Assembly (NCBI GenBank): GCA_902769535.1
Contig: CACXPH010000004.1
Location: forward strand, 1 to 64,000
Length of the DNA stretch: 64,000 bases
Direction: 5' to 3'
Origin: an uncultured Bacteroidales bacterium
GTDB lineage: Bacteria > Bacteroidota > Bacteroidia > Bacteroidales > Paludibacteraceae
Below the pieces are notes generated by a model. It saw nothing but the letters and a program-made list of their open reading frames with translations, was not told the origin of the DNA and ran no database searches. Both the position numbers and the translations under genes were made by a program. Numbering within the stretch: position 1 is the first letter of the stretch; each line of letters starts with the position of its first letter. Below, piece by piece: positions 14,325 to 63,647 of the stretch.

Positions 14325-16245
14325 CTGTTAACTCATTATTAACCATTCGGTGGATATACTGCTGAATGAATGCCTTCAGGTAGTCCGTCATCGGTTCAAT
14401 ACGCTCTGGCTCGATGCTGTCCTTTAGGTTATGGCGCACGTACCGGTCATTGCGGTAGTCATACACTCCCGTCACGTTCTCGCCATCAAACTGAACTAAT
14501 AGACTATCCGAGAAAATCTGATATACCGGTGCATTGTAACATACTGCGTACGGATGTTTCTTTGGCTGAGTGAGCACGTTCTCGCCAAAGGCGAAATACG
14601 GTTCATCATAACCTAACCACGCCATCACGGACGGCATGATATCCGTCTGACTAACCACCTGCGCACGCTTCTCCGGCGTCAACTGAGGGTGGTAGAAAGC
14701 AATCGGAATCTCATACAACCCGCGCGAGTTCGTGTACTCCGGCAAAATCAACTCATTCGTGTGATCCGCCAGAATGACGAACAACGTGTGCTCAAACCAC
14801 GGCTGCTGGCTCACGTTCTCAAAGAACTTCCTCAGCGCGTGATCGGCATAGCCCAGCGGCTCGTGTATAGGCAACGGTCCTTTCGGAAAACTGTCTTTGT
14901 ATTGTGCCGGAACTTTAAACGGATGGTGACTGGAAGCTGTGAACACCGCCGTCATGAACGGCTCTTGCATCGTGTTCATCGTGTTCGCGTAGTACTGCAG
15001 GAACGGCTCGTCCCATATAGCCCACGTACCGTCATACTCTGCATCGTTATTGAACTCCGTCATACCGTAATACGCATCAAACCCTGCACTCCGCGCATAG
15101 GCCTGGAAACCCATACTGCCATTCGGTGCTCCGTGGAAGAAGGCCGTTGTATATCCTTTCTTACTTAACCGCTCCGCAATAGACGACACCTCGTTCGTTG
15201 AGTACGGACTCAGTGTGTACGGCTCGATCAGCATCGGTATGGACGACAGCGCCGATGGCATCGCATCCACACTCTTACGACCCGACGCATATGAATAGTC
15301 AAACGTCACGCATTGTGTCAGCAGCGAGTCGAGGAACGGCGTATAACCCGTATAACCCTCGATGTCATGATTGTAAAAACCCACGTATTCCTTGCTGCAC
15401 GACTCCCATATAATAACCACTACATTATCCGTGCGCACCTTTCCGCTTTCTGCCTCATGAATAGGACTCATGTGGCTTTCCAACTCCTCTGCAGGAAAAT
15501 AATTGCGTTCCACGTACGTGGTATTCTCAATTGTCTTCATTAGTGAGAATGGCGTGTTGAGCACCAACGCACTCTCGCGAGGAGCATTCGTGTATTGCAG
15601 CGCGTTGCTCAACGTGATCGGACGTGTGTAACGACCGAAACCACCGCGAATACCAATCACACAGAAATAGATACTCACTACAAACAGCACCACCTCCAAC
15701 GGATAATAAATAGTCGGTTTTATCCGCGGCAGACTCCAATTCTTACGCGTCAACCAGAAGAACGCCGTCAGCAGCAACAGCAGGAACACTACGGCGTACC
15801 AATATTCCATCACACCGTTCGCAATAACCGTTCCCATATTGTCGTCATTCGACACCTCCGTAAAGAAGGCGCAGGTCGTTCGTCGGTCCACAAATCGGAT
15901 ATACACGCTGTCGGCATTATTGAAAATAATTCCGATCGCGTTCGGAATCCAAAACAACCATAACAACACTTTCTGATAGATCGTATTCTCGCGCCATTTA
16001 GCCGGCAACGGCAGTAACGCGCCGATGATATACAGCGAACTCATATACAAGATCGCTGTCAGGTCAAAACGCATACCACCGAGCAAAATCTCAATCAAAT
16101 GAGGCGTGTCGATATTCGGGAAAATCACGCGATCCATGTAATAACAGAAGATACGTGAGATCGTGTATATCACCATCACCAGCGCGATGTTACATACCAC
16201 TACCGCCAGCGGGTGCTTCCAAATTTGTTTTAACTCTTTACACAT
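14314..16245 (-). CDS. LTA-synthase-like membrane sulfatase
   Basis: 643 residues. Five membrane segments occupy about 1-215; a periplasmic alkaline-phosphatase/sulfatase domain follows (about 270-560). Metal and catalytic motifs are visible: NVVVIIWES (first Asp/Glu site), GRKSVDAMPSALSSIPM where LTA synthases carry the nucleophile (Ser here, rather than the usual Thr), and ILADHTNE (Asp-His). Members transfer phosphoglycerol or phosphoethanolamine onto lipids or glycans. In this operon of LPS/capsule genes it more likely modifies an outer-membrane glycan than makes teichoic acid. The ATG at 16243-16245 lies inside a heptamer repeat array shared with the lptB stop codon. Confidence 0.85.
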   Translation of the reverse strand: MCKELKQIWKHPLAVVVCNIALVMVIYTISRIFCYYMDRVIFPNIDTPHLIEILLGGMRFDLTAILYMSSLYIIGALLPLPAKWRENTIYQKVLLWLFWIPNAIGIIFNNADSVYIRFVDRRTTCAFFTEVSNDDNMGTVIANGVMEYWYAVVFLLLLLTAFFWLTRKNWSLPRIKPTIYYPLEVVLFVVSIYFCVIGIRGGFGRYTRPITLSNALQYTNAPRESALVLNTPFSLMKTIENTTYVERNYFPAEELESHMSPIHEAESGKVRTDNVVVIIWESCSKEYVGFYNHDIEGYTGYTPFLDSLLTQCVTFDYSYASGRKSVDAMPSALSSIPMLIEPYTLSPYSTNEVSSIAERLSKKGYTTAFFHGAPNGSMGFQAYARSAGFDAYYGMTEFNNDAEYDGTWAIWDEPFLQYYANTMNTMQEPFMTAVFTASSHHPFKVPAQYKDSFPKGPLPIHEPLGYADHALRKFFENVSQQPWFEHTLFVILADHTNELILPEYTNSRGLYEIPIAFYHPQLTPEKRAQVVSQTDIMPSVMAWLGYDEPYFAFGENVLTQPKKHPYAVCYNAPVYQIFSDSLLVQFDGENVTGVYDYRNDRYVRHNLKDSIEPERIEPMTDYLKAFIQQYIHRMVNNELTVEK

Positions 16246-16270
16246 TACACTTTACACATTACACATTCAA
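16236..16270. repeat. 7-bp tandem array, 5 units, across lptB stop / sulfatase start
   Basis: Units ctttaca, cattaca, ctttaca, cattaca, cattcaa in direct succession. Both the lptB stop (16267-16269) and the sulfatase start (16243-16245) lie in the array. Confidence 0.85.
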
Positions 16271-17013
16271 CCTTCCACTTTCGTTTTCTTTTTCAACTCA
16301 AAATCCCTACCCAGATAATTTTGCCTTACGATCGGGTTAGCCGCCAACTCTTCCGGCGTGCCGTGGAATAATATCTTTCCCTCGAACAACAAGTACGCAC
16401 GGTCCGTGATCATCAGCGTCTCGTCCACGTTGTGGTCCGTAATCAGAATACCGATATTCTTGTCCTTTAGCCGCCAAACGACGTCCTGGATCTCCTGCAC
16501 GGCAATCGGATCGACTCCCGCGAACGGCTCGTCTAACATCACGAACTTCGGCTCTATCGCCAAACAACGTGCAATCTCCGTACGCCTTCTCTCGCCTCCA
16601 CTCAAACGGTCGCCTAAGTTCGTCCGTACATGCGCCAAGTTGAATTCCTTGATCAGGCTCTCTAACTTCTCCTCCTGATATTCCTTACTGAAATCTGTCA
16701 ACTCCAGCACCGACCGGATGTTGTCTTCCACGGTCATCTTGCGGAACACACTCGCCTCTTGCGGCAAATAACCGATACCCATCTTCGCACGTTTGTACAT
16801 AGGATAGGAGGTAATGTTCTGATCATTCAAGAAGATCTTACCGTTATTGGCGGCCACTAGACCCGTCGTCATGTAAAACGTCGTCGTCTTACCGGCTCCG
16901 TTCGGACCAAGCAAACCCACTATCTCACCTTGCTCCAGCTCGATAGATACATCGTTTACTACGGTTCGCTTGCCGTATTTCTTTACCAAATGTTCTGTTC
17001 TCAGTTTATCCAT
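16267..17013 (-). CDS. lptB: LPS export ABC transporter ATPase LptB
   Basis: 248 residues from the start [10 protein letters not shown] at 17013; a longer frame exists upstream, but it consists of heptamer repeat and does not look conserved. LptB powers extraction of lipopolysaccharide from the inner membrane by LptFG. Walker A is GPNGAGKTT (about 36-44), the Q-loop is in [17 protein letters not shown], the signature is [13 protein letters not shown], Walker B is [13 protein letters not shown], and the H-loop is ITDHNV; all match LptB closely. Upstream is xth (34-bp gap filled by a repeat array), downstream the sulfatase. Other lpt genes are not in the window. Confidence 0.95.
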
Positions 17014-17014
17014 A

Positions 17015-17063
17015 AATCTCCAATCTTCAATCTTCAATCTTCAATCTTCAATTTTCAATCTCC
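17015..17063. repeat. 7-bp tandem array, 7 units, xth 3' end / lptB leader
   Basis: Seven 7-bp units of consensus aatcttc, four of them exact, the others aattttc or aatctcc. The xth stop codon (17048-17050) is inside and the array ends 1 bp upstream of the lptB start, so it occupies the whole ribosome-binding region of lptB. Confidence 0.9.
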
Positions 17064-17836: not shown

Positions 17837-19436
17837 GACCTAAAATATCATATGTTTTACCTCCGCGCAAAATATATACGCGTCCGTCTTTTAATATCTT
17901 CTGAACGCTGGTTTCTGAATTCTGAATATTCTCTATCTCCGTTGTCGAACCACCGCGATACTTAAAGTGAATCGTACCGTCCGCGTCCTTTGTGATCTCC
18001 GTTATTTCGTGATTGGCAAAAGCCGTCCACTCTGTCGCTCCGGCAGGGAATAAATCCGTCGGCTTACCTTTATAGCCGTTGTCCAGACCCTTGACATAAC
18101 TCGGTGCCTTGCCATCCGCCTCCAGAATATCCACTCCCATTGAGTTGGCGCTGTTGTTTACTTCGTTCATATACCACGTGTTGTAGTTGTATGTGATCTT
18201 TGTGATCATCATTCCTTCGCCTGGGATAAACTCATCCCAACCGGTCTGTGTGCGTGCTTCCAGTAGGTAGAACGTGGTCGGATTCGGATCGTTGCCGACC
18301 AAATTATGCGTGTCGCCCGAGCACAATAACAGCGCTTCTTGGTTGTCAATTGTCTGCAGCGTTGTGTTCTCAGCCTGGCTTAGCACTCTCGGTGTCAGCC
18401 ATCCACAAAAGAAACGCTCATATGCCGTGTATCCCGGAGGCGTGTTGCCTTCGTTGTTATAAGGTCCGTAGTCCAAGATGTCCCATTGACCACAGGTCTT
18501 ATGGTTAGCGTCGTTCGTCGCATAGAGATCCGGCAAACCAATCACGTGACTGAACTCGTGTACAAACGTACCGATTCCGGAATACACACCGGCATAGTGA
18601 TTCATCTCATTCGAACAAGCATAGTTGGTAACCGTCTTACCATCCACTATGCAGGAGATGCCCCAACCGGATAAACTGTAAGCGTGTGGCCAGATGGTAT
18701 TTGCACCTCCACCGTCGGCCTCTCCTTCACCGGCATAGATGACATATACAAAGTCCACCTTCCCGTCGTTATTGTTGTCGTACAGCGTGAAATCCGTACC
18801 GTTCTGATCTGCCAATTGACACGCCTCTTTGATCATTGTACCCACAGCGCTTGAAATTCCTCCGCTGCTGGTGTTCTTGCCGTAATACTCGTAGTTCTGG
18901 CTCACCGTATAAGGACCGACTACATCAAAAACAGGCTGGTACTGACCGTAACTCTGGTCAATAAAGTACTGACGCGCACTTCCGCTCGAGTTCACCGTTC
19001 CTTCGTATTGTCTGCCGCTATAGTCGTAACTGTAGTCGAAATGACGCGTGAAGTTCGTACCGTTCATCATGTTGTTCATCGTGTCGTACGGCGTCACGAA
19101 AGCCATATTTTGAAAGTTTACCAAGATGATCAACCCGCGTGGAGCAACATTGAGTGGAATAGCAGTCATCTGTTGCTGAGCAGCCCTTCTTATAGCCCGC
19201 TCTTTCATCTGTAACCGCTCACTTTTCTGCGCTTCCGTCAGCGGAACCAGCGTCTCTTCGTCCAACCAGTTACCCTCAGCGTCCGTCATGTAATGAAAAT
19301 CTTCATTACCATGCTGCCAAACCATCTTCTCTGTTCCATCGGCTCCAATACGAACAAACCCGTCCCTTCTCGCCGGAACTGCCATCACAGCCATACTTGC
19401 GGCTGCTAAAATCAATATACTTGCTATCTTTTTCAT
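17817..19436 (-). CDS. Secreted M6-family metalloprotease
   Basis: 539 residues. Signal peptide at 1-20 ([19 protein letters not shown]), propeptide-like segment at about 23-95, then an M6 (immune-inhibitor-A-like) catalytic domain. The zinc motif [13 protein letters not shown] is at 293-305 (HExxH with downstream Asp); a calcium-binding-like [10 protein letters not shown] is near 220. The C-terminal segment carries a short beta module and the shared motif [14 protein letters not shown]. Heptamer repeats code for the linker ENIQNSETS just before that motif. It is followed by xth (20-bp overlap) and preceded by a small protein resembling its own propeptide. Expected to act outside the cell or on its surface. 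Confidence 0.9.
17898..17925. repeat. 7-bp tandem array, 4 units, inside M6 protease gene
   Basis: Units cttctga, acgctgg, tttctga, attctga. It codes for the linker ahead of the C-terminal motif. Confidence 0.65.
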
Positions 19437-19439: not shown

Positions 19440-19467
19440 TCTAACCTTTAACCTCTAACCTCTCTTC
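19440..19467. repeat. 7-bp tandem array, 4 units, at gene junction
   Basis: Units tctaacc, tttaacc, tctaacc, tctcttc. It contains the stop codon of the small propeptide-like gene and ends 3 bp from the protease start codon. Confidence 0.8.
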
Positions 19468-38907: not shown

Positions 38908-40151
38908 TACTTAATCTCCAGTAACTCAACTGTGAAGATAAGGGCTGCGTACGGAGGGATCGATTGACCTGCTCCGCGCTCGCCGTATCCTAATTCATAC
39001 GGGATATACAGTTTATACTTCGAACCAACGGACATCAACTGCAGACCTTCCGTCCAGCCTTTGATAACACCGTTGAGCGGGAACTCAATAGGCTCGCCAC
39101 GCTGATAACTGCTGTCGAAGACAGTACCGTCAACGAGCGTACCTTCGTAATGAACTTTTACCGTCTGTTCTGCCGTCGGCTTCGGACCCTTGCCTTGAAC
39201 CAATACTTCGTATTGCAAACCGCTCTCGGTTACTTTCACTTCCTCGCGCAGCGCATTCTCCTGCAAGAACTGCTCGCCAGCAGCCTTCGTCTCACCGTAC
39301 TTCTTGTTGTTCAGCACCGTTTGTACGTATTCGTTAGCTGCTTGAGCGTCCATCTGCTCGGTGTAGTTATACAGACCGTTGATGAAACCTTGCTTGATCA
39401 TGTCGTAGTTCGTCTCCAGACCGGCTACGCCTAACAATCCGACCGACTCTTGCTCGCGAATGGCGTTACCGATGTTCTTTGCTACCGAAACCAATTGCGG
39501 GTTACGAATCTCTTGCTTCATGCCCTTCACTACATTATCCAGGAACTCATCAATAGCGTTACCGGTGGTGTCCTCAGCCAGAAGGTACTTGTTGACTTGT
39601 GCACCGTTAGCATAACCGAACGCATAGTTGAGCGAATCCAAGGCATTGTTCAACGTCACAGTCTTGGCTTTGCGTGGGCACTTAGCATAAACGACCTTTG
39701 CTTCCGGCATCTCTTGATGCGACTGGAAACAACTCATCACGAAGGTCTCCACTTCGTCTTCCTTCATAACGGTGGTGTCCTTGTACAGCGCGTTAACCAG
39801 ACCTTGCAAGAATAACTTCTCATTCAGCGTCCATCCTTCACGCTCAGCCAAACCTTTGGTCTCGAAGCTCTTAATCGAAGAACCGAACTGACGACCTGCC
39901 TGCTCGATCTCGTTGAGTTTCTCCTCTTTGTCCAGATAAGCCGCTTCGAGCGCGTCGATAAACTCTGCAACGGTCTCATCGCTGCTGTCGTTCGCGAGGT
40001 AATATTGCTTGAGTTGCAGACCGTTCACCAGACCTAAAGCATAGTTCAAAGAGTCTGTCTCATTGTTCAATTGGGCGTCTTGTGCCTTGTAACTGTTGCC
40101 GCAGGAAACCATTGCTAGTGCGGCGAGGAAAAAAATACTAATTTTTTTCAT
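38907..40151 (-). CDS. FKBP-type prolyl isomerase, lipoprotein, with duplicated N-terminal domain
   Basis: 414 residues from [20 protein letters not shown] at 40151 (lipobox VSCG); a frame extension to 40187 is formed by a repeat array. Two similar FKBP_N-like modules follow: [19 protein letters not shown] (about 24-135) and [19 protein letters not shown] (about 152-265), each with DEFLD or EFIDAL helices. The FKBP catalytic domain is at about 300-414 ([38 protein letters not shown]). The protein would speed prolyl isomerisation and assist folding in the periplasm. The duplicated dimerisation-type module is unusual. The gene follows a second FKBP gene. Confidence 0.9.
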
Positions 40152-40183
40152 TTGTGATTTATAATTTATGATTTGTGATTTAC
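40149..40183. repeat. 7-bp tandem array, 5 units, between the two FKBP genes
   Basis: Units catttgt, gatttat, aatttat, gatttgt, gatttac. It contains the stop codon of the upstream FKBP gene (40180-40182) and its last unit reaches the start codon of the next (40149-40151). Confidence 0.85.
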
Positions 40184-46599: not shown

Positions 46600-47141
46600 T
46601 CTTTAAATATTTGCGTCCGGATGCGATCCGGTCTTTCATCAAATAATGTGTCTAATATACTCAATTCCGTTTGCCACGGATGCTTGTCTGTCCAAATCTG
46701 TCCGTTCCAGTCTGTTGTGCGAACTGAATACTGACTACTGAAAACTGACGGCCTTTCTTTCTGTAATAATGCAACTAGCGTCGCATTCATCTCGTCATTC
46801 AGATCAATCAACCATTTGTACTCTTTCTCGTAAAACGGCCGCAGGTAGTCCGCGAAATACAAAAAGTACGGTGTGTGTTGATAAGCGCTTACCAGTGTAA
46901 TCCAGTGTTGGTGTTGCCAGCGTGTTTGGTAACTGATCTGTATGTCGCGTGTCAACTGTTTATGCTCCACTTTACCCACCGGAACCGTCAACCGAACCAA
47001 ATCCCCCTTCGCGTCGCGGATAAGTGCCCGGTTGCGAAAGGTCTGTTTCTCAAACGTCTCCATCTGCTCAATTGTCGCCGGTTCGCTTATCAGCGCTTCT
47101 ATGTACGACAAGGGTGGCAAATATGCAGTAGGCAAAACCAT
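46596..47141 (-). CDS. WbqC-like family protein
   Basis: 181 residues. The N-terminus (MVLPTAYLPPLSYIEALI) and the central RNRALIRDAKGDLVRLTVPVGK and YLRPFYEKEYKWLIDLND segments fit the WbqC-like family, which occurs next to lepB and dapB in Bacteroidales and is linked to polysaccharide or amino-sugar handling without a firm role. The C-terminal part is shorter than usual and contains the repeat-coded VFSSQYSVRTTDW. It overlaps ilvE by 4 bp; lepB ends 10 bp upstream. Confidence 0.75.
   Translation of the reverse strand: MVLPTAYLPPLSYIEALISEPATIEQMETFEKQTFRNRALIRDAKGDLVRLTVPVGKVEHKQLTRDIQISYQTRWQHQHWITLVSAYQHTPYFLYFADYLRPFYEKEYKWLIDLNDEMNATLVALLQKERPSVFSSQYSVRTTDWNGQIWTDKHPWQTELSILDTLFDERPDRIRTQIFKE
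46721..46748. repeat. 7-bp tandem array, 4 units, in the WbqC-like gene
   Basis: Units gaactga, atactga, ctactga, aaactga. Constant core actga; codes SVFSSQYSV. Confidence 0.85.
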
Positions 47142-48598: not shown

Positions 48599-49279
48599 TT
48601 ATTTTATGTCTTGTTTAGCAAATTCCTCTGCCGCTAAAACAGCTCCTAATGCAAAACCTCTACGGCCCTTGGCGATATGCGTGATGACAATCGTGTCTTC
48701 CTCGCTATCCCAACTTACTACATGCGTACCCGGCACTTCTCCTTCACGTATAGACTCTATAGGTACGTTTTCCCATAACCCGTCACCGATAACCCGTAAC
48801 CCTTCAGCCAAGGTCTTTGCGGTCCCACTTGGTTTATCCAACTTGTGTATATGGTGCGTCTCGGTAATAGACGGCGTGTACTGCGGCTGTTGAGCCATCT
48901 TCTCCGCCAATATCTTATTCAAATCGAAGAAAATATTTACGCCTACCGAGAAGTTACTGCTCCAAACAAGCATAACTTTGCCGGTCTCGTCAGAGATAAC
49001 CGTTTTGTTGTCCTTGATTTTTAATTCGTAATTTTTAATTTTTAATTCCTCTGGCTTCCAACCTGTGGATCCGCACACTACAGGCACGCTCTGCGCCCAC
49101 GCGCGCAAAATATTATCCTTAGCCGTTGCAGGAGTTGTGAACTCAATCGCTATCTCCGCGTCTTTCAAATCGAATGCATCGCCTGCATCAATCCGCGCAA
49201 CAATCTCATGTCCACGCTCCAGGGCAATCCCTTCGATCATATGCCCCATCTTTCCGTATCCGATAATCGCTATTTTCAT
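48599..49279 (-). CDS. dapB: 4-hydroxy-tetrahydrodipicolinate reductase
   Basis: 226 residues from MKIAIIGYGKMGHMIEGIA at 49279; an upstream in-frame ATG would put the promoter inside the gene. DapB reduces the DapA product in lysine and diaminopimelate synthesis. The Rossmann start GYGKMG, IEFTTPA, and the substrate motif ETHHIHKLDKPSGTAKT (given in part; core HHIHKLDKPSGTA) are present. Two heptamer arrays code for ELKIKNYELKIKD and for EGLRVIGDGLWEN, regions that do not look like the family. Promoter at 49301-49332. Confidence 0.95.
   Translation of the reverse strand: MKIAIIGYGKMGHMIEGIALERGHEIVARIDAGDAFDLKDAEIAIEFTTPATAKDNILRAWAQSVPVVCGSTGWKPEELKIKNYELKIKDNKTVISDETGKVMLVWSSNFSVGVNIFFDLNKILAEKMAQQPQYTPSITETHHIHKLDKPSGTAKTLAEGLRVIGDGLWENVPIESIREGEVPGTHVVSWDSEEDTIVITHIAKGRRGFALGAVLAAEEFAKQDIK
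48772..48806. repeat. 7-bp tandem array, 5 units, in dapB
   Basis: Units cccataa, cccgtca, ccgataa, cccgtaa, cccttca. Codes for EGLRVIGDGLWEN on the minus strand. Confidence 0.85.
49016..49050. repeat. 7-bp tandem array, 5 units, in dapB
   Basis: Units gattttt, aattcgt, aattttt (twice), aattcct. Codes for ELKIKNYELKIKD, a stretch not expected in DapB. Confidence 0.9.
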
Positions 49280-49936: not shown

Positions 49937-51691
49937 TTAAAACTGAAAGTAAATGAAAGGCTGCATATCAGCCGTAACAAACTGATAAATGATCACAATG
50001 GCGATGCACACGGCAATCACGATAACCCAGATAGGCATAGCGGTGAACCAAAGACGATAACGTCGTTTCCAATTAGTCGGCAACCAGTGGATGACCATTC
50101 CCGCGATGAACATCGCTACCACGTATTTGTAAGCCCACAGAAAATCCGGAATAATCGCGTTACTCCATGCACCGCCAATCTGATTAACCATATTCGTTGC
50201 TGTGCGCCAGGCCACTTCATTCGCCGTCGCCGGATCGAGGTTACTACTCGAGCGGAAGAACAGACGCGTGAAAGTGATGAACGTGAAAGTCTGTGCAATC
50301 GCCCACGCATTAGAAATCTTGTTGGTGAACTTCGTATCCACGCCGTTGAAAAGCCAATAGACATACCGAATGAACGTACCGACCCAAATGATTAGTGCCC
50401 ACACGGCAAAGAGTCGCCAAACGGGTAATGCCCATATATGATCTGCAGCGAAAAGACCGATGGTCAGCGCTGTGATGGCAATGATACGAAGAGGCCAACT
50501 TGTCTCCCGCCAGATCTTCTCAACAATCATACCGGCACCGTTGATAGCACCCCACAACACAAAATTCCAACTTGCTCCGTGCCATAAACCACCCAGCACC
50601 TGCGTGATGAACGAGTTGAAGTTGGCTGCCCATAGTTTCTTTGCCTTAAAGCCAAGAATCGTTCTGTTTCCGCCTAAAGGAATATACAGGTAACTCTTGA
50701 GCCAGCGACCGAGCGACATGTGCCACCGCCGCCAGAACTCCTGCGGGTTCTTGGACTTGTACGGACTGTTGAAGTTCATCGGCAAGTAGAATCCCATCAA
50801 CATCGCTACACCAATCGCAATATCGGTATAACCCGAGAAATCGGCATAGACTTGCAGACTATATGCAAAGAGCGCAAACAGGTTTTCAAATCCCGAGAAG
50901 AGTAGGGGATTGTCGAACACACGGTCAATCAAATTGACTGCCAGATAATCCGACATAATGATCTTCTTTGCCAAACCGTTGATAATCCAGAAAACAGCTA
51001 TTCCAAACGCTCTGCGACTTAGTCGGTAAGGCTTGTATAACTGCGGTATAAACTCCTCTGCACGTACTATCGGGCCAGCCACTAACTGCGGGAAGAACGA
51101 CACGTAGAAACCGAAATCGAGTATGTTCTTGACCGGTTCGATCTTCTTGCGGAAGACGTCACAGGTGTACGAGATAACCTGGAAAATATAGAACGAGATA
51201 CCTACCGGCAGCACAATCGTATCTACGCTAAACCGACCGGCTGTCGCAAAACCGTTGCCTACATACGCGAAGATGTCAAACACCCGAAAGTCCGCTCCGA
51301 ACCAGCTGTTAATGACGTTCGTGAAGAAATACGCGTACTTGAAATAGAAAAGCAGGCTAAGGTCTATCACCACCGAAAGCGTCAACCATAACTTCCTTTG
51401 AATACTAACGTCTGATTTCTGAATTCTCCTCGCTATCAGCCAATCGGAGATGGTGATAAATGCTAATATCAGCAGGAACAGACCGCTGGTCTTATAATAG
51501 AAGAACCAACTAACGAACAGCAGGTATATATTGCGTAGATGCAGTTTCTTGTTCCCGAGTCGGTCAGGTACGCCTTCGATGATGAGTGCGAAGAGTGCAA
51601 ATACCAACGCGAAGAATGCCCAGAAATAGAACTGGGTGAACAGCAGAGGCGACTCGGCGTTGAAGGCTAATATGTACCGGAGAGTATCCAT
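49937..51691 (-). CDS. MBOAT-family membrane O-acyltransferase
   Basis: 584 residues, about 11-12 membrane segments. Membrane-bound O-acyltransferase of the AlgI/DltB type, which passes acyl groups across the inner membrane to glycans. Landmarks: MNFNSPYKSKNPQEFWRRWHMSLGRWLK (core FWRRWHMSLGRWL) and the conserved His in LGGLWHGASWNFVLWGA. It overlaps the SGNH-type hydrolase gene by 25 bp; this pair is a known arrangement in which the SGNH protein finishes the transfer in the periplasm. The acceptor glycan is not indicated. Confidence 0.94.
   Translation of the reverse strand: MDTLRYILAFNAESPLLFTQFYFWAFFALVFALFALIIEGVPDRLGNKKLHLRNIYLLFVSWFFYYKTSGLFLLILAFITISDWLIARRIQKSDVSIQRKLWLTLSVVIDLSLLFYFKYAYFFTNVINSWFGADFRVFDIFAYVGNGFATAGRFSVDTIVLPVGISFYIFQVISYTCDVFRKKIEPVKNILDFGFYVSFFPQLVAGPIVRAEEFIPQLYKPYRLSRRAFGIAVFWIINGLAKKIIMSDYLAVNLIDRVFDNPLLFSGFENLFALFAYSLQVYADFSGYTDIAIGVAMLMGFYLPMNFNSPYKSKNPQEFWRRWHMSLGRWLKSYLYIPLGGNRTILGFKAKKLWAANFNSFITQVLGGLWHGASWNFVLWGAINGAGMIVEKIWRETSWPLRIIAITALTIGLFAADHIWALPVWRLFAVWALIIWVGTFIRYVYWLFNGVDTKFTNKISNAWAIAQTFTFITFTRLFFRSSSNLDPATANEVAWRTATNMVNQIGGAWSNAIIPDFLWAYKYVVAMFIAGMVIHWLPTNWKRRYRLWFTAMPIWVIVIAVCIAIVIIYQFVTADMQPFIYFQF
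51400..51427. repeat. 7-bp tandem array, 4 units, in the MBOAT gene
   Basis: Units gaatact, aacgtct, gatttct, gaattct. Codes for the cytoplasmic-loop segment RRIQKSDVSIQ. Confidence 0.6.
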
Positions 51692-55671: not shown

Positions 55672-57533
55672 AGTCCTTCTTTGTCTAATTTAAGCATATG
55701 ATAGAGCTCTTTGGTAGAGCCGTGTTCTACAAACTGATCGTTCACGCCGAGGCGTATCACATGCGGTGTGTAGCCATGATCGGCCATCCACTCCAGCACC
55801 GCACTGCCGAGACCTCCGGCTGTCATGCCGTCTTCGGCGGTAACGATGGTCTTAAAGTTCTTTCCCACCTCATGCAAAATCTCCTCGTCCAGCGGCTTGA
55901 GCCAGCGCATGTCATAGTGAGCAAAACTGATAGCCTCTCGCCTCTCACCTCTCGCCATTTCAATGGCTTCGCTCATGGCGTTTCCGATGGCACCGATGGT
56001 CAGTACCGCGACGTCTTTTCCGTCGCGGAGCTTCACACCCTTGCCGTATTTCACCATTCCATCATTTGCATCTTTCGCATCATTCGCCATCGGCGTCCTT
56101 CCTCTCGGATAGCGGATAGCTATCGGACCATTGAGTGTCTCGGCCATCTTGAGCATTTCACGCAGATCCTCTGCGGTACGCGGTGCACAGATTTGCATGT
56201 TTGGGATCGGTCGCAGATAGGCTAAATCGAGCAGACCGTGGTGCGTAGCACCGTCGTTGCCGACGATGCCTGCGCGGTCGATACAGAAGACCACGTGTAG
56301 GTTCTGCAGCGCTACGTCATGCACGATGTTATCGTAGGCTCGCTGGAGGAAGGTGGAGTAGATGTTACAGTAAGGCACCATTCCCGCCTTGGCCAAACCG
56401 GCACTGAAGGTCACCGCATGACCTTCGGCGATACCTACGTCATAGACGCGATCCGGTAACTCTTTCTGCATGATACTCATCGAGCACCCGCTCGGCATAG
56501 CCGGCGTGATACCCACTATCTTCTCGTTCTTCTTCGCCAGTTCCAATAAGGTCTCGCCGAACACCTCTTGCCACAACGGCTGAACACTGACTGCTGACTG
56601 CTGATCGCTCTGACGTTCGCCTGTGGCGACGTCGAATTCCCCCGGTGCATGCCAAACGGTCTGGTCGTTCTCGGCCGGTGCATAACCCTTACCTTTCTTG
56701 GTGATGATGTGCAGCACTTTCGGACCGCGGTGGTTCTTGATCTCACTCAGGATACGCACCAGACTCTCTACGTCGTGACCGTCCGTCGGACCGAAATAAC
56801 GAATATTCAAACCCGTGAAGATATTACTCGGTTGTTTGCTCAGTACCGCCTTCAGACTGTTGTTGCGACGCAGCATAGCGCGCCGTTTACGTTCATCCAC
56901 CAAGTGCAGTTTTTCTGCAAACTGGTACAGCTTCCAGCGCCATTTATTGTACATCTCGCTCGTCGTGAGATCCACCAAATACTGCGTGATACCTCCCTTA
57001 AGCGGGTCGATGGCCATATGATTGTCATTGAGTACGATGAGCAGGTTATTCTTATCCATCGAGGTGTTGTTCAGTCCCTCGAAAGCCAAACCACCTGTCA
57101 TGGCTCCGTCACCTATGATTGCCACAACGTTACTGTCACCGGCTACGTCCAGTCCGAGTGCTGCGGAAATCGAGTTGCTCGCATGTCCGGCAATGAACGC
57201 GTCGTATTCGCTCTCCGCCGGATTCGTGAACGGGCTAAGACCTTTGAACTGCCGGTTCGTGTGGAACCGATCCCGACGACCGGTGAGGATCTTATGGGCA
57301 TAGGCCTGGTGACCAACGTCCCAAACCAATTGGTCCTTCGGCGTATCGAACACATAATGCAGCGCCACGGTCAATTCGATCGTTCCCAAGGACGAAGCCA
57401 AGTGGCCGGGGTTCTTACTCAGCGCCTCGATGATGAACTGCCGTAACTCTGCACAAACAGCAGGCAGTTCTTCTACCTTCAACTGTTTCAAATCAGCCGG
57501 CGAGTCAATCTTATTTATATACTTATATTCCAT
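55638..57533 (-). CDS. dxs: 1-deoxy-D-xylulose-5-phosphate synthase
   Basis: 631 residues from [18 protein letters not shown] at 57533, just after the promoter; the frame continues to 57605 but would include the promoter. Makes DXP from pyruvate and glyceraldehyde 3-phosphate, first step of the MEP isoprenoid route. The thiamine motif [20 protein letters not shown] (core GDGAMTGG), [14 protein letters not shown] and [15 protein letters not shown] are standard. Two heptamer arrays and one nonamer array lie inside: [22 protein letters not shown] and ANDAKDAND. Operon head with trkA, trkH and on to coaE. Confidence 0.96.
55933..55953. repeat. 7-bp tandem array, 3 units, in dxs
   Basis: Units gcctctc, gcctctc, acctctc. 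Codes for ARGERREA. Confidence 0.7.
56061..56087. repeat. 9-bp tandem array, 3 units, in dxs
   Basis: Minus strand gcgaatgat, gcgaaagat, gcaaatgat, in frame; codes for the tripeptides AND-AKD-AND. Confidence 0.7.
56579..56613. repeat. 7-bp tandem array, 5 units, in dxs
   Basis: Units gctgaac, actgact, gctgact, gctgatc, gctctga. Codes for [13 protein letters not shown] between two conserved DXS segments. Confidence 0.9.
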
Positions 57534-57662: not shown

Positions 57663-57680
57663 CAGCGCAAAAGTGTGCGT

Positions 57681-59504
57681 ATGAGAGTATCGGAAATTAA
57701 AAAGGTGATTGGTGACCGGTTAACGGTTATCGGGAACGAGGATTTGGACATTCGTCATCTGTTGATTGACAGCCGGCAGTTAGGTGCTGAACCAGAGGCG
57801 ACGCTCTTCTTTGCCATCAAGACCGACAAGAACGACGGCGCGAACTATATCCCGGACTTAAAAGCGAAAGGCGTGAAGGCTTTCGTGACCGGTGATGCCG
57901 TGCAGGCCTTACAGGACTTGGCAGCTTACGTACGTAGTACGTTTGATGGCACAGTCATTGGTATCACAGGTTCGAACGGCAAGACGGTCGTCAAGGAGTG
58001 GTTATATCAACTACTCAAAGAGGACTATGAGGTAATTCGTTCCCCCAAGTCCTATAACTCGCAAATAGGCGTGCCCCTCTCGGTGTGGCAGTTAGCCAAC
58101 ACCAAACCCCAAATAGCCATCTTTGAAGCGGGTATCTCCATGCCCGGTGAGATGGAGAAACTCGAGCGAATCATTCGTCCGACGATTGGTGTGATCACGT
58201 ATATCGGTCATGAGCACGATGAGAACTTCGCGTCCCTAGAGCAGAAACGCGAAGAGAAGAACAAACTCTTCGTGCATGCGAAGACGGTGATCGAAGACCC
58301 GACGCACCAGAACGTACGCACTTGTGCTGCCGTTATGAGGGCACTCGGATACGATGAAGAGACCATTGCTGAACGTATTCTTCACCAGACCCACGAGACG
58401 GTGATGGAAGTAAACCTAACGGCGCTTGTAGATAATGTGCGGTACTTCCGCAGCCTACTCAAACCGACGACTAAACTGACCTGTATGGTCAAGGCTTTTG
58501 CTTATGGCGCAGGAAGCGTCGAAGTGAGCAAGGCACTGCAGAAATGCGGCTTAGTGGATTACCTCGCTGTTGCCGTGGCCGACGAAGGCGTGGAGTTGCG
58601 CAAAGCAGGTATCACGCTGCCTATCATCATCATGGATCCGGAGGTGGCGGCGATGGATCTGATTCTCGAGAACAACCTCGAACCGAATGTCTATTCACAC
58701 CAGTCACTCAAGACGGTTATCGCTGCGGCGGAGGCCAAAGGCCTGGAGAACGTACCGATTCATATCAAGATTGACTCGGGCATGCACCGACTTGGTTTCT
58801 ACAAAGAAGACCTGCCGTGGTTGATAGCGCACCTGAACACTACCAAAGCCGTGCGCGTAGCCTCTGTCTTCTCGCATCTGGCAGGTTCTGACGAGCCGCA
58901 GTTCGATGATTTCACCCGCGAGCAAATCGCTTATTTCGACAGTTGCGCAGAAGAACTCAAAGCAGGCCTCTCATACACCATACATCATACACCATACACC
59001 ATTCTTAAGCACATCTGTAACAGCGCGGGTATTGAGCGCTTCACGGACTACCAGTTCGACATGTGCCGTCTCGGTATCGGTCTGTACGGTTTCTCGTTTG
59101 CAGGAGCACAACTGCGAAACGTCTGTACGCTGCGCACCACGATCCTTTCCGTCAAGACCGTCAAGGCCGGAGAGACGATAGGTTACGGACGGCATACCAA
59201 GCTTGATGAAGACCGTGTGATTGCTGTCATTCCTATCGGCTATGCCGATGGTTTTGACCGTCGCTTCTCGAACTACGGTGGAGAGGTGTTCATCCGCGGT
59301 AAGCGTTGTCCGGTGGTGGGTAATGTATGCATGGATCAAGCCATGGTAGATGTCACCGGTACCGACGCTCGTCCGGGGGACTCCGCAGAGGTGTTCGGCG
59401 ATAAGATGCCGCTGCAGGAACTGGCCGATAAACTCGGTACTATCACATACGAAATTTTAACATCTGTCTCGCGCCGTGTCCAACGTATCTATTTCTACGA
59501 GTAA
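57681..59504 (+). CDS. alr: MurF-Alr fusion with shortened MurF part; alanine racemase
   Basis: 607 residues from [14 protein letters not shown]. Bacteroidales usually carry a fused UDP-MurNAc-tripeptide:D-Ala-D-Ala ligase (MurF) plus alanine racemase of about 820 residues. Here the MurF part is about 235 residues: ATP loop [13 protein letters not shown] (about 94-106), [13 protein letters not shown], and a jump from EKNKLFVHA (about 195) to [23 protein letters not shown], then straight into the racemase (from about 237). The MurF C-terminal domain that binds D-Ala-D-Ala is missing. The racemase is complete by eye: [18 protein letters not shown] with the PLP Lys (about 271), [33 protein letters not shown]. 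Two heptamer arrays are embedded. Confidence 0.9.
57711..57738. repeat. 7-bp tandem array, 4 units, at 5' end of murF-alr
   Basis: Units ggtgacc, ggttaac, ggttatc, gggaacg. Codes for [12 protein letters not shown]. Confidence 0.7.
58972..59006. repeat. 7-bp tandem array, 5 units, in alr
   Basis: Units catacac, catacat, catacac (twice), cattctt. Codes for the peptide [11 protein letters not shown] just before the conserved HICNSAG. Confidence 0.9.
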
Positions 59505-60222: not shown

Positions 60223-61346
60223 ACGCGTTCAGCCTGAAAGAGAGTAGGCTTACCGGCCACGCGACAACCGATCACATAACCTGTACCTCCGTCACGAAGG
60301 TGCAGTTTTTTCTTTAACTGTTCCGGTGTGAGAGGGTAGTTGCGAACGAGGACGTTCGCTTGCTCGATTTTTGATTTTTGATTTTCGATTTTTGATTTGA
60401 TTTCCCACACTCTGCCCGGGAAGTTTTCTACCAATTGGTCGGAGGCATAGAGATGTGTATTCACATCGAGTTTCTGCAGTCCGAACCGCTGTGCCACTAA
60501 CTTATACGCACCGGCTTTTAATATACTTGCCGAAGGCTCGTAGAGATAGGTGTATGGTGTATGGTGTATGGTGTATAAAGCCTCTTGTTCTTCTTCGCGA
60601 GTGAAGACAAAAGCCTTCTCCGGCTCGGCAAGGTCTATCGCTGTAATAGTTCCTTTTCCGCCACTGAGCAGCAACACTTCTTTCACTTCGTTCTTGACGG
60701 CCACTACATAAACTGACCACTGAAGGCTGAAAACTGACAGCTCTTTTATCGCTTGACTTATGTCCAGCATAGGCGATAGTTTGAGCATCAACTGTTTGCT
60801 GTGCTTAAGCAATTCCGGAAGCAGTTCCACTATGTTCGGTGTGCAGTCGGTTAACTTAAACACCTTTCCTCCGTGTGCATCGCGTCGTGCCGGGTCGGCG
60901 AAGATTAAATCGTACTCACCGGCTGAGGCGATGAATTCTTCGGCGGTGGTGTTATGAACGATTATCGATTTTCGATTATCGATTAGTGAGAAATTATGCT
61001 CCGCAATGCGGCAGAGTTCGGCGTTTTGCTCTACGTAGTCGGTATGCGTAAATTGCTCGCTCAAGAAGTAGGTATCTACGCCATAACCGGCGGTGAGGTC
61101 TAATAAAGTTGAAAGTTGAAAGTTGAAAGTTGAAAGAAGCTGCGCCTTATACCTTGCCGTCAGTTCCGATGAACATTGCTCACAACTGAGACGCACGGGA
61201 TACCACCAGTCATCGATAGCTGCGAAGGTAGGCAGTTTGTCTGCCGTGCGCTCTCTGCCTTCGACCTGCTGCAAGAACCAACGCCACTCCTCGTCGCTCA
61301 GGTGTTTGTACTTATTTCGCTGCAATGCCAATTCGAGTACCGACAT
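60219..61346 (-). CDS. SAM-dependent methyltransferase-like protein (THUMP-like C-terminal part)
   Basis: 375 residues from MSVLELALQRNKYKHLSDEE at 61346; a longer frame to 61403 overlaps the neighbour's coding end. Rossmann methyltransferase signs: LLDLTAGYGVDTYFLSEQF (SAM loop), EQNAELCRIAEHNFSLI and DLIFADPARRD, with a C-terminal THUMP-like part (VRNYPLTPEQLKKKLHLRDGG). The family is conserved in Bacteroidales, probably an RNA-modifying enzyme, with target unknown. Five heptamer arrays in this one gene code for odd stretches such as [42 protein letters not shown] and IKSKIENQKSKIE. Confidence 0.75.
   Translation of the reverse strand: MSVLELALQRNKYKHLSDEEWRWFLQQVEGRERTADKLPTFAAIDDWWYPVRLSCEQCSSELTARYKAQLLSTFNFQLSTLLDLTAGYGVDTYFLSEQFTHTDYVEQNAELCRIAEHNFSLIDNRKSIIVHNTTAEEFIASAGEYDLIFADPARRDAHGGKVFKLTDCTPNIVELLPELLKHSKQLMLKLSPMLDISQAIKELSVFSLQWSVYVVAVKNEVKEVLLLSGGKGTITAIDLAEPEKAFVFTREEEQEALYTIHHTPYTYLYEPSASILKAGAYKLVAQRFGLQKLDVNTHLYASDQLVENFPGRVWEIKSKIENQKSKIEQANVLVRNYPLTPEQLKKKLHLRDGGTGYVIGCRVAGKPTLFQAERV
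60366..60400. repeat. 7-bp tandem array, about 5 units, in the methyltransferase gene
   Basis: Consensus gattttt, with a gattttc unit and a final gatttga. Codes for IKSKIENQKSKIE. Confidence 0.85.
60549..60576. repeat. 7-bp tandem array, 4 exact units
   Basis: ggtgtat four times exactly. On the minus strand it codes for [10 protein letters not shown], the same core as the array in alr. Confidence 0.95.
60711..60738. repeat. 7-bp tandem array, 4 units
   Basis: Units aactgac, cactgaa, ggctgaa, aactgac. Codes for ELSVFSLQWSV. Confidence 0.8.
60960..60987. repeat. 7-bp tandem array, 4 units
   Basis: Units gattatc, gattttc, gattatc, gattagt. Codes for LIDNRKSIIV. Confidence 0.85.
61105..61139. 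repeat. 7-bp tandem array, 5 units
   Basis: aaagttg four times exactly, then aaagaag. Codes for LSTFNFQLSTL immediately before the SAM loop. Confidence 0.95.
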
Positions 61347-62349
61347 AATAATGCGAAAGTATTTGTTCGTAGGAATAACCTTCGGTAGCCATCTGCGCGG
61401 CACCTATCTGACAGAGACCTGCTCCGTGACCCCAGCCGTGACCGGTTAGTGTCCACAGACTGTTTGCATGCGAGACCTCGAACCAGGAGCTATAGAGGCA
61501 TTTTTTGCTTAAGGCATAACGGATGTTCAGTTCTTTGCCGATGATCTCCGAGCGATTCGTACCGGTTATTCGCAGACTGTCTATGCGCCCGGACGCTCCG
61601 CGATGAAGTGGTTCGAGAGCGGTTATATGTCCTATTCCCGGATAACGGGCATTGACGATCCCGTCCAGTTCGTCGTCTGTGTAGGTTACTTTCCAATCAT
61701 GAAAATCCTTGGTCTCCTGATCGTAGTCGTTGAGCACCAGTCGTAGCGTCTGTGCACTCACGCGTCCGCAGTACGGACATTCGACGGACTGAATATAGGG
61801 CACGTCTATATCTTCCCAACACGTGCGCCAGATCTCTGAACGGCCTCCGCAACACTTATAGTATCGGCAGTCGCAGATTTCCCGCTCACCGCTCACCGCT
61901 AACCGCTCACCGTTAATCAGCACTTGTCCCGCTGTCTCACGGACGGCTTGTACCGCGCGCTCATTCATGCGCAATAGACCTTCATAACGCTGGCAGTGGT
62001 CATCTGCACATACATGGAAACCCTCATGGTTCGGGTGCTCCATGGCGCGCATAGCCCAGGACCGACTAATGACGGCGTGTGCCTTGAGCAGTTCCATCGG
62101 ACTGTTCGCATTCATCTCAGACGAGATGACGGAGCACAGGTAGTCTTCGAGGTCGAGCGTGTTGATAGCAGTCTGTGTGCCGTCGGGATTGGTGCGGATC
62201 TCGAGTTCGCCTTGAAACTCCTGATCTTCGTGCCGATCCCAATGAAAACCAATACCGATGCGTACGTTCTTTAATAGGAACGTGTGCTCGAGTTGCTCAA
62301 ACTCAATTTTTGGCGCCGTTAATATCCCAACCTTGATTGCAATTCCCAT
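61312..62349 (-). CDS. SpoIID/LytB-domain protein
   Basis: 345 residues. Stage II sporulation protein D / amidase-enhancer domain, whose members cut or stimulate cutting of peptidoglycan glycan strands. Family segments: TLDLEDYLCSVISSEMNANSPMELLKAHAVISRS (core LEDYLCSVISSEM and LKAHAVISRSWA), CCGGRSEIWRTCWED, and the C-terminal GHGWGHGAGLCQIGAAQMA. No signal peptide is visible, unlike most members. A heptamer array codes for LINGERLAVSGERE. It overlaps the glycosyltransferase by 31 bp and the methyltransferase start by 35 bp. Together with the BadF-type kinase upstream it fits cell-wall turnover and recycling. Confidence 0.9.
   Translation of the reverse strand: MGIAIKVGILTAPKIEFEQLEHTFLLKNVRIGIGFHWDRHEDQEFQGELEIRTNPDGTQTAINTLDLEDYLCSVISSEMNANSPMELLKAHAVISRSWAMRAMEHPNHEGFHVCADDHCQRYEGLLRMNERAVQAVRETAGQVLINGERLAVSGEREICDCRYYKCCGGRSEIWRTCWEDIDVPYIQSVECPYCGRVSAQTLRLVLNDYDQETKDFHDWKVTYTDDELDGIVNARYPGIGHITALEPLHRGASGRIDSLRITGTNRSEIIGKELNIRYALSKKCLYSSWFEVSHANSLWTLTGHGWGHGAGLCQIGAAQMATEGYSYEQILSHYYVGTRIGIAAK
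61882..61916. repeat. 7-bp tandem array, 5 units, in the SpoIID/LytB gene
   Basis: ccgctca three times with ccgctaa and ccgttaa. Codes for INGERLAVSGERE. Confidence 0.95.
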
Positions 62350-63647
62350 GTACGCAGGCGATCCTTATACCAGTTATTGCGGTTCATAGCGACGACATCA
62401 CAGTTCGCATCGGAGTTGTCTTCCCACCGGCGGCAGTTATACAGCACGTTGTAGATACGTCCGATAGGCCAGTCGCGCGAGATGCGCAAGCCCACGGCGT
62501 AGTCCTCACCGTACTTGGTAGTTGGATAATTGATCGTGCGTAGTAACGGCACATAGAACCCACGCGGTGCACCGAGTCCGTTGATACGAAGGGCGTTGTT
62601 ACGACCGTTGTCATCCGTCCACTCACGGTGGTCAATCACACCCGGAGGAAGAATCTCACCGGCCATATTCGTCAGTTGGTACGTGCCAATCACCATGCCG
62701 TATTTGCCACTCTCGAAGGCGTCGATGAACTGCTGCACGGTGGTCTCGTCGAAATAGGTGTCATCGGAGTCCAGTTGGATGGCGTACTTACCGCATCGCG
62801 GGTCATGGATCGCTACGTTCCAGTTTCCGCCTATCGCATGCCAGGTCTTATCCTGGGCAATGTAGATCAAATCTGAATTCTGACGGCTGATTTCTGAAAT
62901 CTTTTCTGCTGTGCCATCGGTGGAGTTGTCATCGACGACGATGACGTTGAAGGAGTAGGGTGCACGCACTTTCTGACTCAACGCACTTTGGATGGCATCG
63001 CCTATCGTGCGTGCACGGTTCTTGCAAGGGATGATGACCGAAGCGGTGACAGGGTAAGTGTCGTCGGCTTTAGGAAGGGGCTCGTATTTACCCGGCGCAA
63101 GGTATGCACCGATGCGTTTGAGATGCGCCGTGACGCATTGCTCCATCTCAATCTGCACTTGACGATTGCGCGGATCGACGTAGTCGAAGAGTTTCTCCCC
63201 GGACTTACGCGTATCTTCCTCAATCTCGTAATACAAGAACTCAGGTATATGACTGATAGCTGATGGCTGATCACTGAATACTTGAGATGCTCTCAGGCGC
63301 AAGTCATACAGCCCTGCGAACTCATAGTCTGTGTCCATCTGCGCCACAAGGGCTTGGAGTTTGGCGGTGTCCCAGAGGAGTACCGAGCCAAAATCAAAAT
63401 CGTCGCGTAGCGCACCTATCTGATAGTCGATCACAGGCGCTTGCTGACCGTTCGCGAAATGATCGGCATAAACCATCGTGGCACCCGTCATCTCCATCAC
63501 TTGCACCATGCGTTCTTGACCAAGATACACCCACTCGATGTGAGGTTTAAGACAAATCATAGTGTACGGCGTTTGTGCCTGTTGTGCAATCTCACGGATG
63601 GCTTTCGTCGAGCAAACTCTGCCTGGCAGATAAAATGTTGTTATCAT
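62319..63647 (-). CDS. Family 2 glycosyltransferase with N-terminal extension
   Basis: 442 residues. Residues about 1-200 form an N-terminal extension of unclear fold (MITTFYLPGRVCSTKAIREI, VYLGQERMVQVMEMTG); the GT-A domain starts about 203: TASVIIPCKNRARTIGDAI, VVDDNSTDGT and the metal-binding DSDDTY. The rest (YAVGLRISRDWPIGRIY) is conserved-looking. It would add a sugar to an envelope or cell-wall acceptor not identifiable here. Two heptamer arrays code for FSDQPSAIS and EISRQNSDL. It overlaps the SpoIID/LytB gene by 31 bp; the BadF-type gene upstream is separated by an 11-bp array. Confidence 0.85.
   Translation of the reverse strand: MITTFYLPGRVCSTKAIREIAQQAQTPYTMICLKPHIEWVYLGQERMVQVMEMTGATMVYADHFANGQQAPVIDYQIGALRDDFDFGSVLLWDTAKLQALVAQMDTDYEFAGLYDLRLRASQVFSDQPSAISHIPEFLYYEIEEDTRKSGEKLFDYVDPRNRQVQIEMEQCVTAHLKRIGAYLAPGKYEPLPKADDTYPVTASVIIPCKNRARTIGDAIQSALSQKVRAPYSFNVIVVDDNSTDGTAEKISEISRQNSDLIYIAQDKTWHAIGGNWNVAIHDPRCGKYAIQLDSDDTYFDETTVQQFIDAFESGKYGMVIGTYQLTNMAGEILPPGVIDHREWTDDNGRNNALRINGLGAPRGFYVPLLRTINYPTTKYGEDYAVGLRISRDWPIGRIYNVLYNCRRWEDNSDANCDVVAMNRNNWYKDRLRTWELQSRLGY
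62871..62898. repeat. 7-bp tandem array, 4 units, in the glycosyltransferase gene
   Basis: Units atctgaa, ttctgac, ggctgat, ttctgaa. Codes for EISRQNSDL next to the nucleotide loop. Confidence 0.8.
63249..63276. repeat. 7-bp tandem array, 4 units, in the glycosyltransferase gene
   Basis: Units atgactg, atagctg, atggctg, atcactg. Codes for FSDQPSAISH. Confidence 0.85.

Follow-up and report, generated by a model that had tools for sequence, protein, structure and literature searches.

Why should one stretch of DNA from an uncultured Bacteroidales bacterium of the Paludibacteraceae be so densely sown with tandem arrays of seven-base units, many of them inside conserved genes? An earlier note on this stretch (the 64-kb window, as we call it below) had claimed at least 22 such arrays, most of them within coding genes. 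Window arrays were detected both by Tandem Repeats Finder and by a lag-7 scan, the latter set against 60 codon-preserving shuffles. The scan found 13 strong arrays (score of at least 10), compared with a mean of 0.05 after shuffling. At a score of at least 8 there were 17, versus a codon-preserving shuffle mean of 0.9, and the lenient cut-off of at least 7 gave 22 versus a mean of 3.0 (maximum 7). This confirms the earlier observation; about 19 of the 22 are above chance, and the weakest, each taken singly, are doubtful.

Nine of the strong arrays lie in genes (one each in dapB, murF-alr and spoIID, two in dxs and four in the PG_1098-like gene) and four at gene junctions, while weaker ones were found in the M6 protease, WbqC, MBOAT, dxs, murF-alr and glycosyltransferase genes (Table 1). 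Some particulars of the earlier note had to be corrected. Two arrays were claimed in dapB, of which one passes the lag-7 cut-off, the repeat at 48772 being a 70% Tandem Repeats Finder match. The repeat in the ABC ATPase, at 59847, has a period of 8 and not 7, and the methyltransferase-like (PG_1098-like) gene contains four arrays instead of five.

Table 1. Period-7 arrays of the window, with lag-7 scores and the state of the site in related genomes.
Array	Position	Strand	Location	Score	Site in relatives
TTACACA	16238..16267	.	junction of ORFs 14314-16245 / 16267-17037	17	
AATCTTC	17015..17059	.	junction of ABC-ATPase ORF 16267-17037 / 17048-17836	32	
TTCTGAA, weak	17913..17927	.	M6 peptidase gene	8	
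TCTAACC	19442..19463	.	gene junction 19436/19455	12	
ATTTATG	40150..40181	.	junction of two FKBP genes	13	length and sequence vary
ACTGAAT, weak	46723..46741	.	WbqC-like gene	9	
AATTTTT	49029..49047	.	dapB	12	21-aa loop class; fixed length, units vary by species
TCTGATT, very weak	51411..51427	.	MBOAT gene	7	
GCCTCTC	55933..55953	.	dxs loop B	11	
CGGATAG, weak	56106..56120	.	dxs	8	
CTGACTG	56587..56604	.	dxs loop A	11	
CGGTTAA, very weak	57717..57733	.	murF-alr	7	
CATACAC	58972..59002	.	murF-alr	18	21 bp shorter in G003 and G014, 3 bp shorter in G002
GATTTTT	60366..60398	.	PG_1098/THUMP-like gene	20	
GGTGTAT x4, perfect	60549..60576	.	PG_1098/THUMP-like gene	21	
CGATTAT	60959..60985	.	PG_1098/THUMP-like gene	14	
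AAAGTTG x4.6, perfect	61105..61136	.	PG_1098/THUMP-like gene	25	
CCGCTCA	61882..61912	.	SpoIID/LytB-like gene	18	24 bp absent in three relatives
CTGATAG, weak	63253..63271	.	glycosyltransferase gene	9	

The proposed excess of period 7 is also present in a 464-kb sample of the same genome (G000), which contains 108 period-7 arrays versus none in one triplet shuffle. Other periods from 4 to 25 gave 0-14 arrays each, apart from the harmonics 14 and 21, which are over-represented too. Arrays of a 7-nt unit thus occur far above chance, as in LSSR/SSR repeats, whose tandem units of 5-11 nt are preferably of 7. Their coding location, on the other hand, prevails in the window and not in this larger sample: with a simple ORF caller, 53 of the 108 arrays fall within ORFs, 34 across an ORF edge and 21 outside. 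As coding sequence accounts for 58% of array bases versus 94% of all bases, arrays are strongly depleted in genes.

Relatives carrying the loci are rumen and gut Paludibacteraceae MAGs, and at the loci compared array density in related species is 11-30 per 100 kb. Larger samples gave 113 arrays in 400 kb for genome G014 and 57 in 420 kb for G003. The excess is restricted to this lineage: 20 genomes from 17 other genera have 8 arrays in 320 kb (2.5 per 100 kb), and 15 genomes from other families have 5 in 310 kb (1.6 per 100 kb). The load also differs among genus relatives: samples of 1.9-20 kb were free of arrays in 9 of the 24. Every sequence from the lineage is a draft assembly of an uncultured organism, mostly a MAG, and short repeats can mislead assemblers, so one might suspect an assembly artefact or related species mixed in metagenome bins. 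However, the 80 named loci stem from several MAG projects (judged by titles), reading frames are intact, some sister species have arrays in common and MAGs of other genera have few. We consider such an artefact very improbable.

Across arrays we counted 175 distinct canonical units, in line with the proposal that many different heptamers are involved. A ctga core had been suggested for several of them, and what remains of it is a mild bias: TGA/TCA is present in 63 of the 175 units versus 44 expected, which together with an excess of AAT makes up the residual unit bias. A fixed common core (RRYNRNN or TGA) was tried on the 175 units and rejected (best alignment score 2.57 versus 2.38, sd 0.06, for shuffled letters). 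Units are instead genome-specific, as same-unit pairs within a genome but across stretches numbered 417 versus 240 (sd 21.9, maximum 310) in 500 permutations. The commonest unit in G000, AAATCAT, accounts for 13 of 106 merged arrays; 14 AAATCAT arrays of this genome lie mostly between genes, and 13 of the 14 are in gene sense.

What do such arrays do to the proteins that contain them? In dxs, loop A bears a period-7 array in 35 of 77 species and loop B in 28 of 78, with differing units, the control giving a codon-shuffle mean of 0.1 and 0-3 for other periods. Arrays are placed in variable segments of core enzymes and keep frames open, both as previously described; dxs is one uninterrupted in-frame ORF at 76 of the 78 loci where it was found and the hosts examined are mostly core enzymes, which is not the character of phase-variation contingency loci, where surface genes or modification genes are switched by out-of-frame changes of copy number. 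Neither dxs loop has an array in 20 other-genus genomes (genes located by BLAST), where the best lag-7 score anywhere in dxs is 8 and loop A is non-repetitive and of similar length. Within the genus, loop A also shows no difference in length with and without an array (p 0.62). These two comparisons indicate that the array of loop A replaces an ordinary loop. The idea that arrays insert peptide therefore fails for loop A, and it stands for dxs loop B, one of 8 sites among the 15 tested at which array-bearing loops are longer. In a structure model of Dxs, which is weak (mean pLDDT 68.6), the loop A region falls below 50 and loop B lies where a helix ends, with pLDDT near 90.

Arrays recur at the same loops and with varied units, more than one unit being found at 19 of 20 recurrent sites, and in dapB and MBOAT loops of one length carry differing units. 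Alleles turn over fast: 27 of 79 loop comparisons were wholly different at a gene third-position identity of at least 0.8. In MBOAT, an I.N..L.I.N-like pattern persists in alleles of one length although their units differ, and this conserved hydrophobic pattern hints at possible selection on the peptide. As translation through a 7-nt array yields one and the same 7-residue repeat whichever frame is used, it is conceivable that arrays serve as peptide modules, either contingency-like or tuned, with selection keeping heptad-like peptides or diversity as such. The MBOAT pattern, the fast turnover and the reappearance of the same alleles in distant species would all agree with this idea. Nevertheless, the host enzymes serve housekeeping in the cytosol or membrane and have no evident common role, arrays are depleted in genes and missing from dxs loop A in 42 of 77 species and from loop B in 50 of 78, and changes of +7 or +14 would break these genes, making arrays poor switches. 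Diversification under selection thus seems improbable to us.

Length changes were proposed as a further check on insertion. In-gene gains do keep the frame, although only 3 of the 37 gains counted (at five of 20 sites, those with a clear empty length) are multiples of 21 bp. Pure slippage from an empty site predicts such multiples in genes, so these counts speak against it, and growth of an empty site purely by whole units was rejected as the sole route. One 21-bp repeat step was seen between two sister species (L126 and L141).

Loop alleles also recur in distant species, as judged from a quick tree that leaves 30 of its 78 inner forks open, and some are sharp-edged across species. For 69 pairs with a dxs loop allele in common, identity at third positions was 0.82 within the allele and 0.55 in 20 flanking codons on each side, a contrast biased upward because pairs were picked by insert identity of at least 0.8, and among these inserts some are not heptamer arrays. 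Alleles are thus shared across diverged flanks. We also scanned five genes for 12-codon windows with near-identical third positions. These were rarer in variable than in conserved segments of dxs (0.46% vs 1.05%) and MBOAT (0.11% vs 0.57%) and commoner in variable segments of coaE, trkH and trkA, where blocks close to the start of the ORF account for the excess; we regard the scan as uninformative and weighed it against the claim of exchange.

A rival account of the arrays would be templated copying, in which arrays and other small repeats spread as short single-stranded pieces that replace about 20-60 bp at the receiving site (by a short-patch illegitimate or microhomology-mediated route), within a genome or across species. 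Short-patch replacement of such a kind has been reported in Acinetobacter baylyi. Copying would agree with the sharp-edged alleles common to several species, with the 34 of 37 gains that are not multiples of 21 bp, with the palindromic and C-rich non-heptamer repeats that occupy the same loops of relatives, and with the clustering of same units in G000, where 32 of 360 pairs within a 20-kb stretch match versus 116 of 5205 between stretches. In G014, however, this excess is absent or weak (16 of 334 vs 258 of 5771), neither a donor-recipient pair with a traceable breakpoint nor any machinery was identified, and copying would still require a generator for period 7 itself. We hold it to be a less likely account of the arrays.

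The explanation that we favor, with a probability of roughly one half, is that the arrays are heptanucleotide simple-sequence repeats arising from 7-nt misalignment, homogenised, sometimes exchanged, and tolerated where the protein permits. Mutation that strongly favors an offset of 7 nt, most likely through misaligned (slipped) DNA synthesis, would make arrays continually, and these would overwrite short stretches or extend them at any place. Those within genes would be spared by purifying selection mainly where they are in frame, without sense stops and in tolerant loops, so that arrays would accumulate in certain loops and between genes, probably with no positive function of their own. Homogenisation among the arrays of one genome would then account for genome-specific units, and recombination over very short tracts may sometimes pass loop alleles between species. 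Slippage alone predicts neither the genome-specific units nor the alleles shared by distant species, and copying or recombination is needed in addition; slippage also leaves the choice of 7 nt, and of this lineage, unexplained. A lost mismatch-repair system was considered and rejected as the cause, since mutS and mutL are present: 39 of 41 genomes have a mutS match above the curated cut-off and 37 of 41 a mutL match. Most of the genomes that lack one are incomplete, and all 23 genomes with completeness of 90% or more and contamination of 5% or less match both.

A bolder reading, which we think less likely than not, is that a lineage-specific process turns short stretches of coding DNA into period-7 sequence by re-copying the neighbouring seven bases, often at unchanged length, and homogenises units throughout the genome, after which alleles would travel from species to species as discrete 35-60-bp pieces. 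If true, essential enzymes would owe the diversity of their variable loops to a repeat-templated route not yet described, and not to point mutation.

Heptamer repeats have long been known in bacteria, mostly between genes and with scant comparative evidence on their origin. Here, some 80 related species show one protein loop with many different repeats, and it becomes directly testable how microsatellites of bacteria are born, spread and are replaced, and what they contribute to new protein sequence. Some caution follows from this, as differing loops in proteins of this sort may reflect the turnover of repeats and not adaptation.

How do these arrays compare with known systems? Cyanobacterial STRRs are genome-wide heptamer arrays, likewise enriched between genes and variable between close relatives. 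TAACTGA direct repeats occur in Beggiatoaceae, cyanobacteria and some Bacteroidetes; many directly precede start codons and a few are in ORFs, with no mechanism known (PMC4679880). Heptamer arrays, some of them inside ORFs, are common to that system and ours, and such repeats being described beyond cyanobacteria, their kind is already known (PMC4679880). That system has the single unit TAACTGA, whereas ours has 175 distinct units, and within ORFs its arrays are mostly in hypothetical proteins or at the ends of proteins (PMC4679880), while ours also lie in the middle of core enzymes. The GGGNATC heptamers of Xanthomonas and Nostoc are genome-wide, over-represented between genes and variable in length and sequence between close relatives, all of which applies here too; they differ in having a G-rich, quadruplex-capable consensus, whereas our units have no fixed consensus and many are AT-rich (PMC4692102).

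Rickettsia palindromic elements, as a review describes them (PMC10969869), are likewise small repeats tolerated in frame in unrelated metabolic genes. They form palindromic families of about 150 bp; our arrays are short tandem heptamers whose unit changes by species and do not have that character, small palindromic inserts being found in loops of relatives. There is also a likeness to prokaryotic heptanucleotide LSSR (long simple sequence repeats; Mrazek 2007, as cited in PMC4679880 and PMC4692102), which have units of 5-11 nt, 7 being commonest, and are proposed to arise when the polymerase slips by about 7 nt. Unit range and preference for 7 agree with ours, and the differences from LSSR as outlined there are the density of 11-30 arrays per 100 kb, the genome-specific units and the recurrent, fast-turnover loops within genes. 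The earlier opinion that this was not a described system is therefore too broad for the repeats as such, known also in Bacteroidetes and within ORFs (PMC4679880). It stands for their load and turnover inside genes, of which we found no report in the literature; the kind of repeat is known, and its in-gene turnover is the new part.

TRF together with a lag-identity scan recovered the heptamer arrays where the earlier note had placed them. At a lag-7 array score of at least 10, which we call strong, the window holds 13 period-7 arrays, against a mean of 0.05 in codon-preserving shuffles; lowering the score to at least 8 gives 17 (0.9 in shuffles), and to at least 7 gives 22 (3.0). Among the control periods 5, 8, 10, 11 and 13 the top count at a score of at least 10 was 4, for period 11. 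Of the strong arrays, nine lie within ORFs, namely dapB, dxs, murF-alr, a PG_1098/THUMP-like gene and spoIID (Pfam identification), and the remaining four at gene junctions. In the ABC-ATPase gene, the repeat starting at 59847, previously taken for a heptamer, has period 8 instead; period 8 is also raised in the related genome G014 (28 arrays in 400 kb). The murF-alr ORF matches the Mur ligase middle domain in part only. At 634 aa it seems short for a MurF-Alr fusion, and its MurF half may be reduced.

When the 13 window arrays were aligned with relatives (three had no aligned relative), other heptamers or none stood at the same place. In dxs, a period-7 array was present in 35 of 77 species at loop A (between GEFDV and PLWQE) and in 28 of 78 at loop B (between EAI and AHYDMRW), while codon shuffles gave 0.1 and the range for other periods was 0-1 at loop A and 0-3 at loop B. 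Of the 78 loci with a dxs gene, some of them cut by contig ends, 76 carry it as one open frame. A survey of 11 of 16 orthologue sets, those with at least 15 members, yielded 20 sites with arrays in at least three species (dxs, MBOAT, coaE, dapB and others), two of them zero-length intervals inside conserved sequence. More than one unit, i.e. repeated heptamer, occurred at 19 of these 20 sites; the 35 arrays at dxs loop A alone comprise 23 distinct units. trkA and trkH were nearly array-free (1 and 4 arrays).

It had been proposed that the arrays are peptide insertions, and alignment of orthologues upheld this for some sites only. Array-bearing loops were longer at 8 of 15 tested sites (p<0.05; dapB, two in coaE, two in MBOAT, two in dxs including loop B, and ABC) and not longer at the other seven; at dxs loop A there was no length difference (MWU p 0.62). 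Five sites, murF-alr among them, have a clear empty length; relative to it, 37 loops with arrays gain 12-45 bp, only three of them in multiples of 21 and the other 34 not. In dxs of other genera of the family (n=20) both loops are array-free with lengths like those in the genus, and the best period-7 score anywhere in these genes is 8, outside the loops; in the alignment of E. coli Dxs (2o1s), loop A is shorter by about 4 residues and loop B by about 5. In dapB and MBOAT, differing units occupy loops of identical length (21 aa), and the MBOAT 21-aa loops keep a hydrophobic peptide pattern under differing units. Over 18 site-length classes, mean lag-7 identity within arrays was 0.91, a value raised by picking arrays on score, and agreement between species at the same positions was 0.59; in one exceptional class, dxs 342-378, species were equally alike (0.90).

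Loop DNA was wholly different in 27 of 79 comparisons in which third positions of the gene agreed at 80% or more, and in 1 of 15 at 90% or more, the 79 being drawn from few, overlapping species pairs. Aligned sister loci displayed both whole replacements and in-frame gains, e.g. 36 bp with ATTGTGA repeats in L135 and 21 bp of CTCTCGG in L141, and on a quick trkA tree the unit states require at least 34 changes at A and at least 26 at B. In 69 pairs sharing dxs inserts (same length, at least 80% identity), third-position identity was 0.82 inside and 0.55 in the flanks, and higher inside in 68; these pairs were selected on insert identity, many are non-independent, and the inserts include some other than heptamer arrays. 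CTCAACT arrays at loop B are identical or match at 35 of 36 positions in two sister species (L126, L141) and a distant one (L164); outside the loop, the dxs of L164 departs from the other two at over half of its third positions. Judged from these sequences, alleles shared by distant species probably reflect exchange over short tracts. A scan for shared tracts that was not confined to loops did not single out the dxs loops. A short C-rich/G-rich palindromic element fills the same loops as arrays in some species; its core, allowing up to two mismatches, has 32 matches in 1480 kb of named loci and 1 in the G000 (own-genome) sample.

Coordinates of individual features (L numbers, named loci of relatives)
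Feature	Position	Remark
Period-8 array CGAGATCA	window 59847-59881	ABC-ATPase gene
Perfect 11-bp tandem arrays	window 3877-3898, 23471-23497, 48513-48536, 63707-63730	
Palindromic element, CCTCCCTTGAGGGGAGG core	dxs loop B of L099, L119, L124, L133; MBOAT loop of L098	
murF-alr ORF	window 57600-59504	634 aa
2898-aa ORF	window 25227-33923	sole match a weak List-Bact repeat
AAATCAT/AAATTTG arrays	L020 4579-12984	before several successive genes, gene-sense, sometimes reaching the start codon

A period-7 scan over samples of the genome and its relatives bore out the expected excess. The draft genome comprises 39 contigs (1.89 Mb), and our 464-kb sample of it (the window plus 20 stretches of 20 kb) contained 108 heptamer arrays, whereas a single triplet shuffle had 0. 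The harmonics 14 and 21 apart, no other period between 4 and 25 exceeded 14 arrays, periods 9 and 11 coming next after 7 (14 each). A simple ORF caller put 53 of the 108 in ORFs, 34 at edges and 21 outside. G014 had 113 arrays in 400 kb and G003, another related genome, 57 in 420 kb. The named trkA relatives, MAGs from rumen and gut whose titles give Paludibacteraceae or Bacteroidales, carried 345 in 1480 kb (best 80 of 248 loci); per 100 kb, the 52 nearer loci had 30.0 arrays and the 28 farther ones 10.8. Small samples were uneven, 9 of 24 genus relatives having no array in 1.9-20 kb each. Samples from the family outside the genus (20 genomes of 17 other genera) gave 8 arrays in 320 kb, and from the order outside the family (15 genomes of other families) 5 in 310 kb. 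As arrays are few there and many in relatives, the heptamer load is mainly a trait of this lineage.

Each of the three widely sampled genomes has its own favourite unit. After merging, AAATCAT accounts for 13 of 106 arrays in G000, AAAGGTG for 16 of 111 in G014 and AAAAATC for 7 of 56 in G003. Same-unit pairs across stretches within a genome numbered 417, versus 240 (sd 21.9, max 310) with stretches dealt among genomes. Units cluster within stretches in G000 (32 of 360 pairs versus 116 of 5205 between) and show no clear clustering in G014 (16 of 334 versus 258 of 5771). The ctga core formerly ascribed to several units did not hold as a fixed motif: a search over 175 distinct units found no such core, TGA/TCA and AAT being only mildly favoured.

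Since all three genomes sampled over at least 400 kb prefer 7 nt with many units, the arrays point to misaligned DNA synthesis, the proposal of Mrazek 2007 for heptamer repeats as cited in PMC4679880 and PMC4692102. Slippage as the sole process was rejected, and putative homogenisation and short-tract copying would have to be added, because slippage alone does not account for replacement at constant length, for gains other than multiples of 7, for units particular to a genome or for shared alleles. Both mutS and mutL were found. Since 7 is not divisible by 3, an array encodes one and the same 7-residue peptide whichever frame is read, and arrays without a sense stop are therefore tolerable wherever entry is in frame; a stop triplet occurs in the sense unit of 13 of 49 G000 ORF arrays versus 30 of 34 at gene edges.

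As to novelty, the earlier claim stands in part. Among open-access titles and abstracts on heptamer repeats, with subscription papers mostly outside the scope, we found no report of such a load in this lineage, nor of differing heptamers swapping in the same protein loops. Since such arrays are in print, we count these two aspects as new and the kind as known: PMC4679880 and PMC4692102 already describe heptamer arrays, their intergenic excess, variation among close relatives and a number of in-ORF cases, and according to PMC10969869, in-frame selfish inserts within metabolic genes are already known from Rickettsia.
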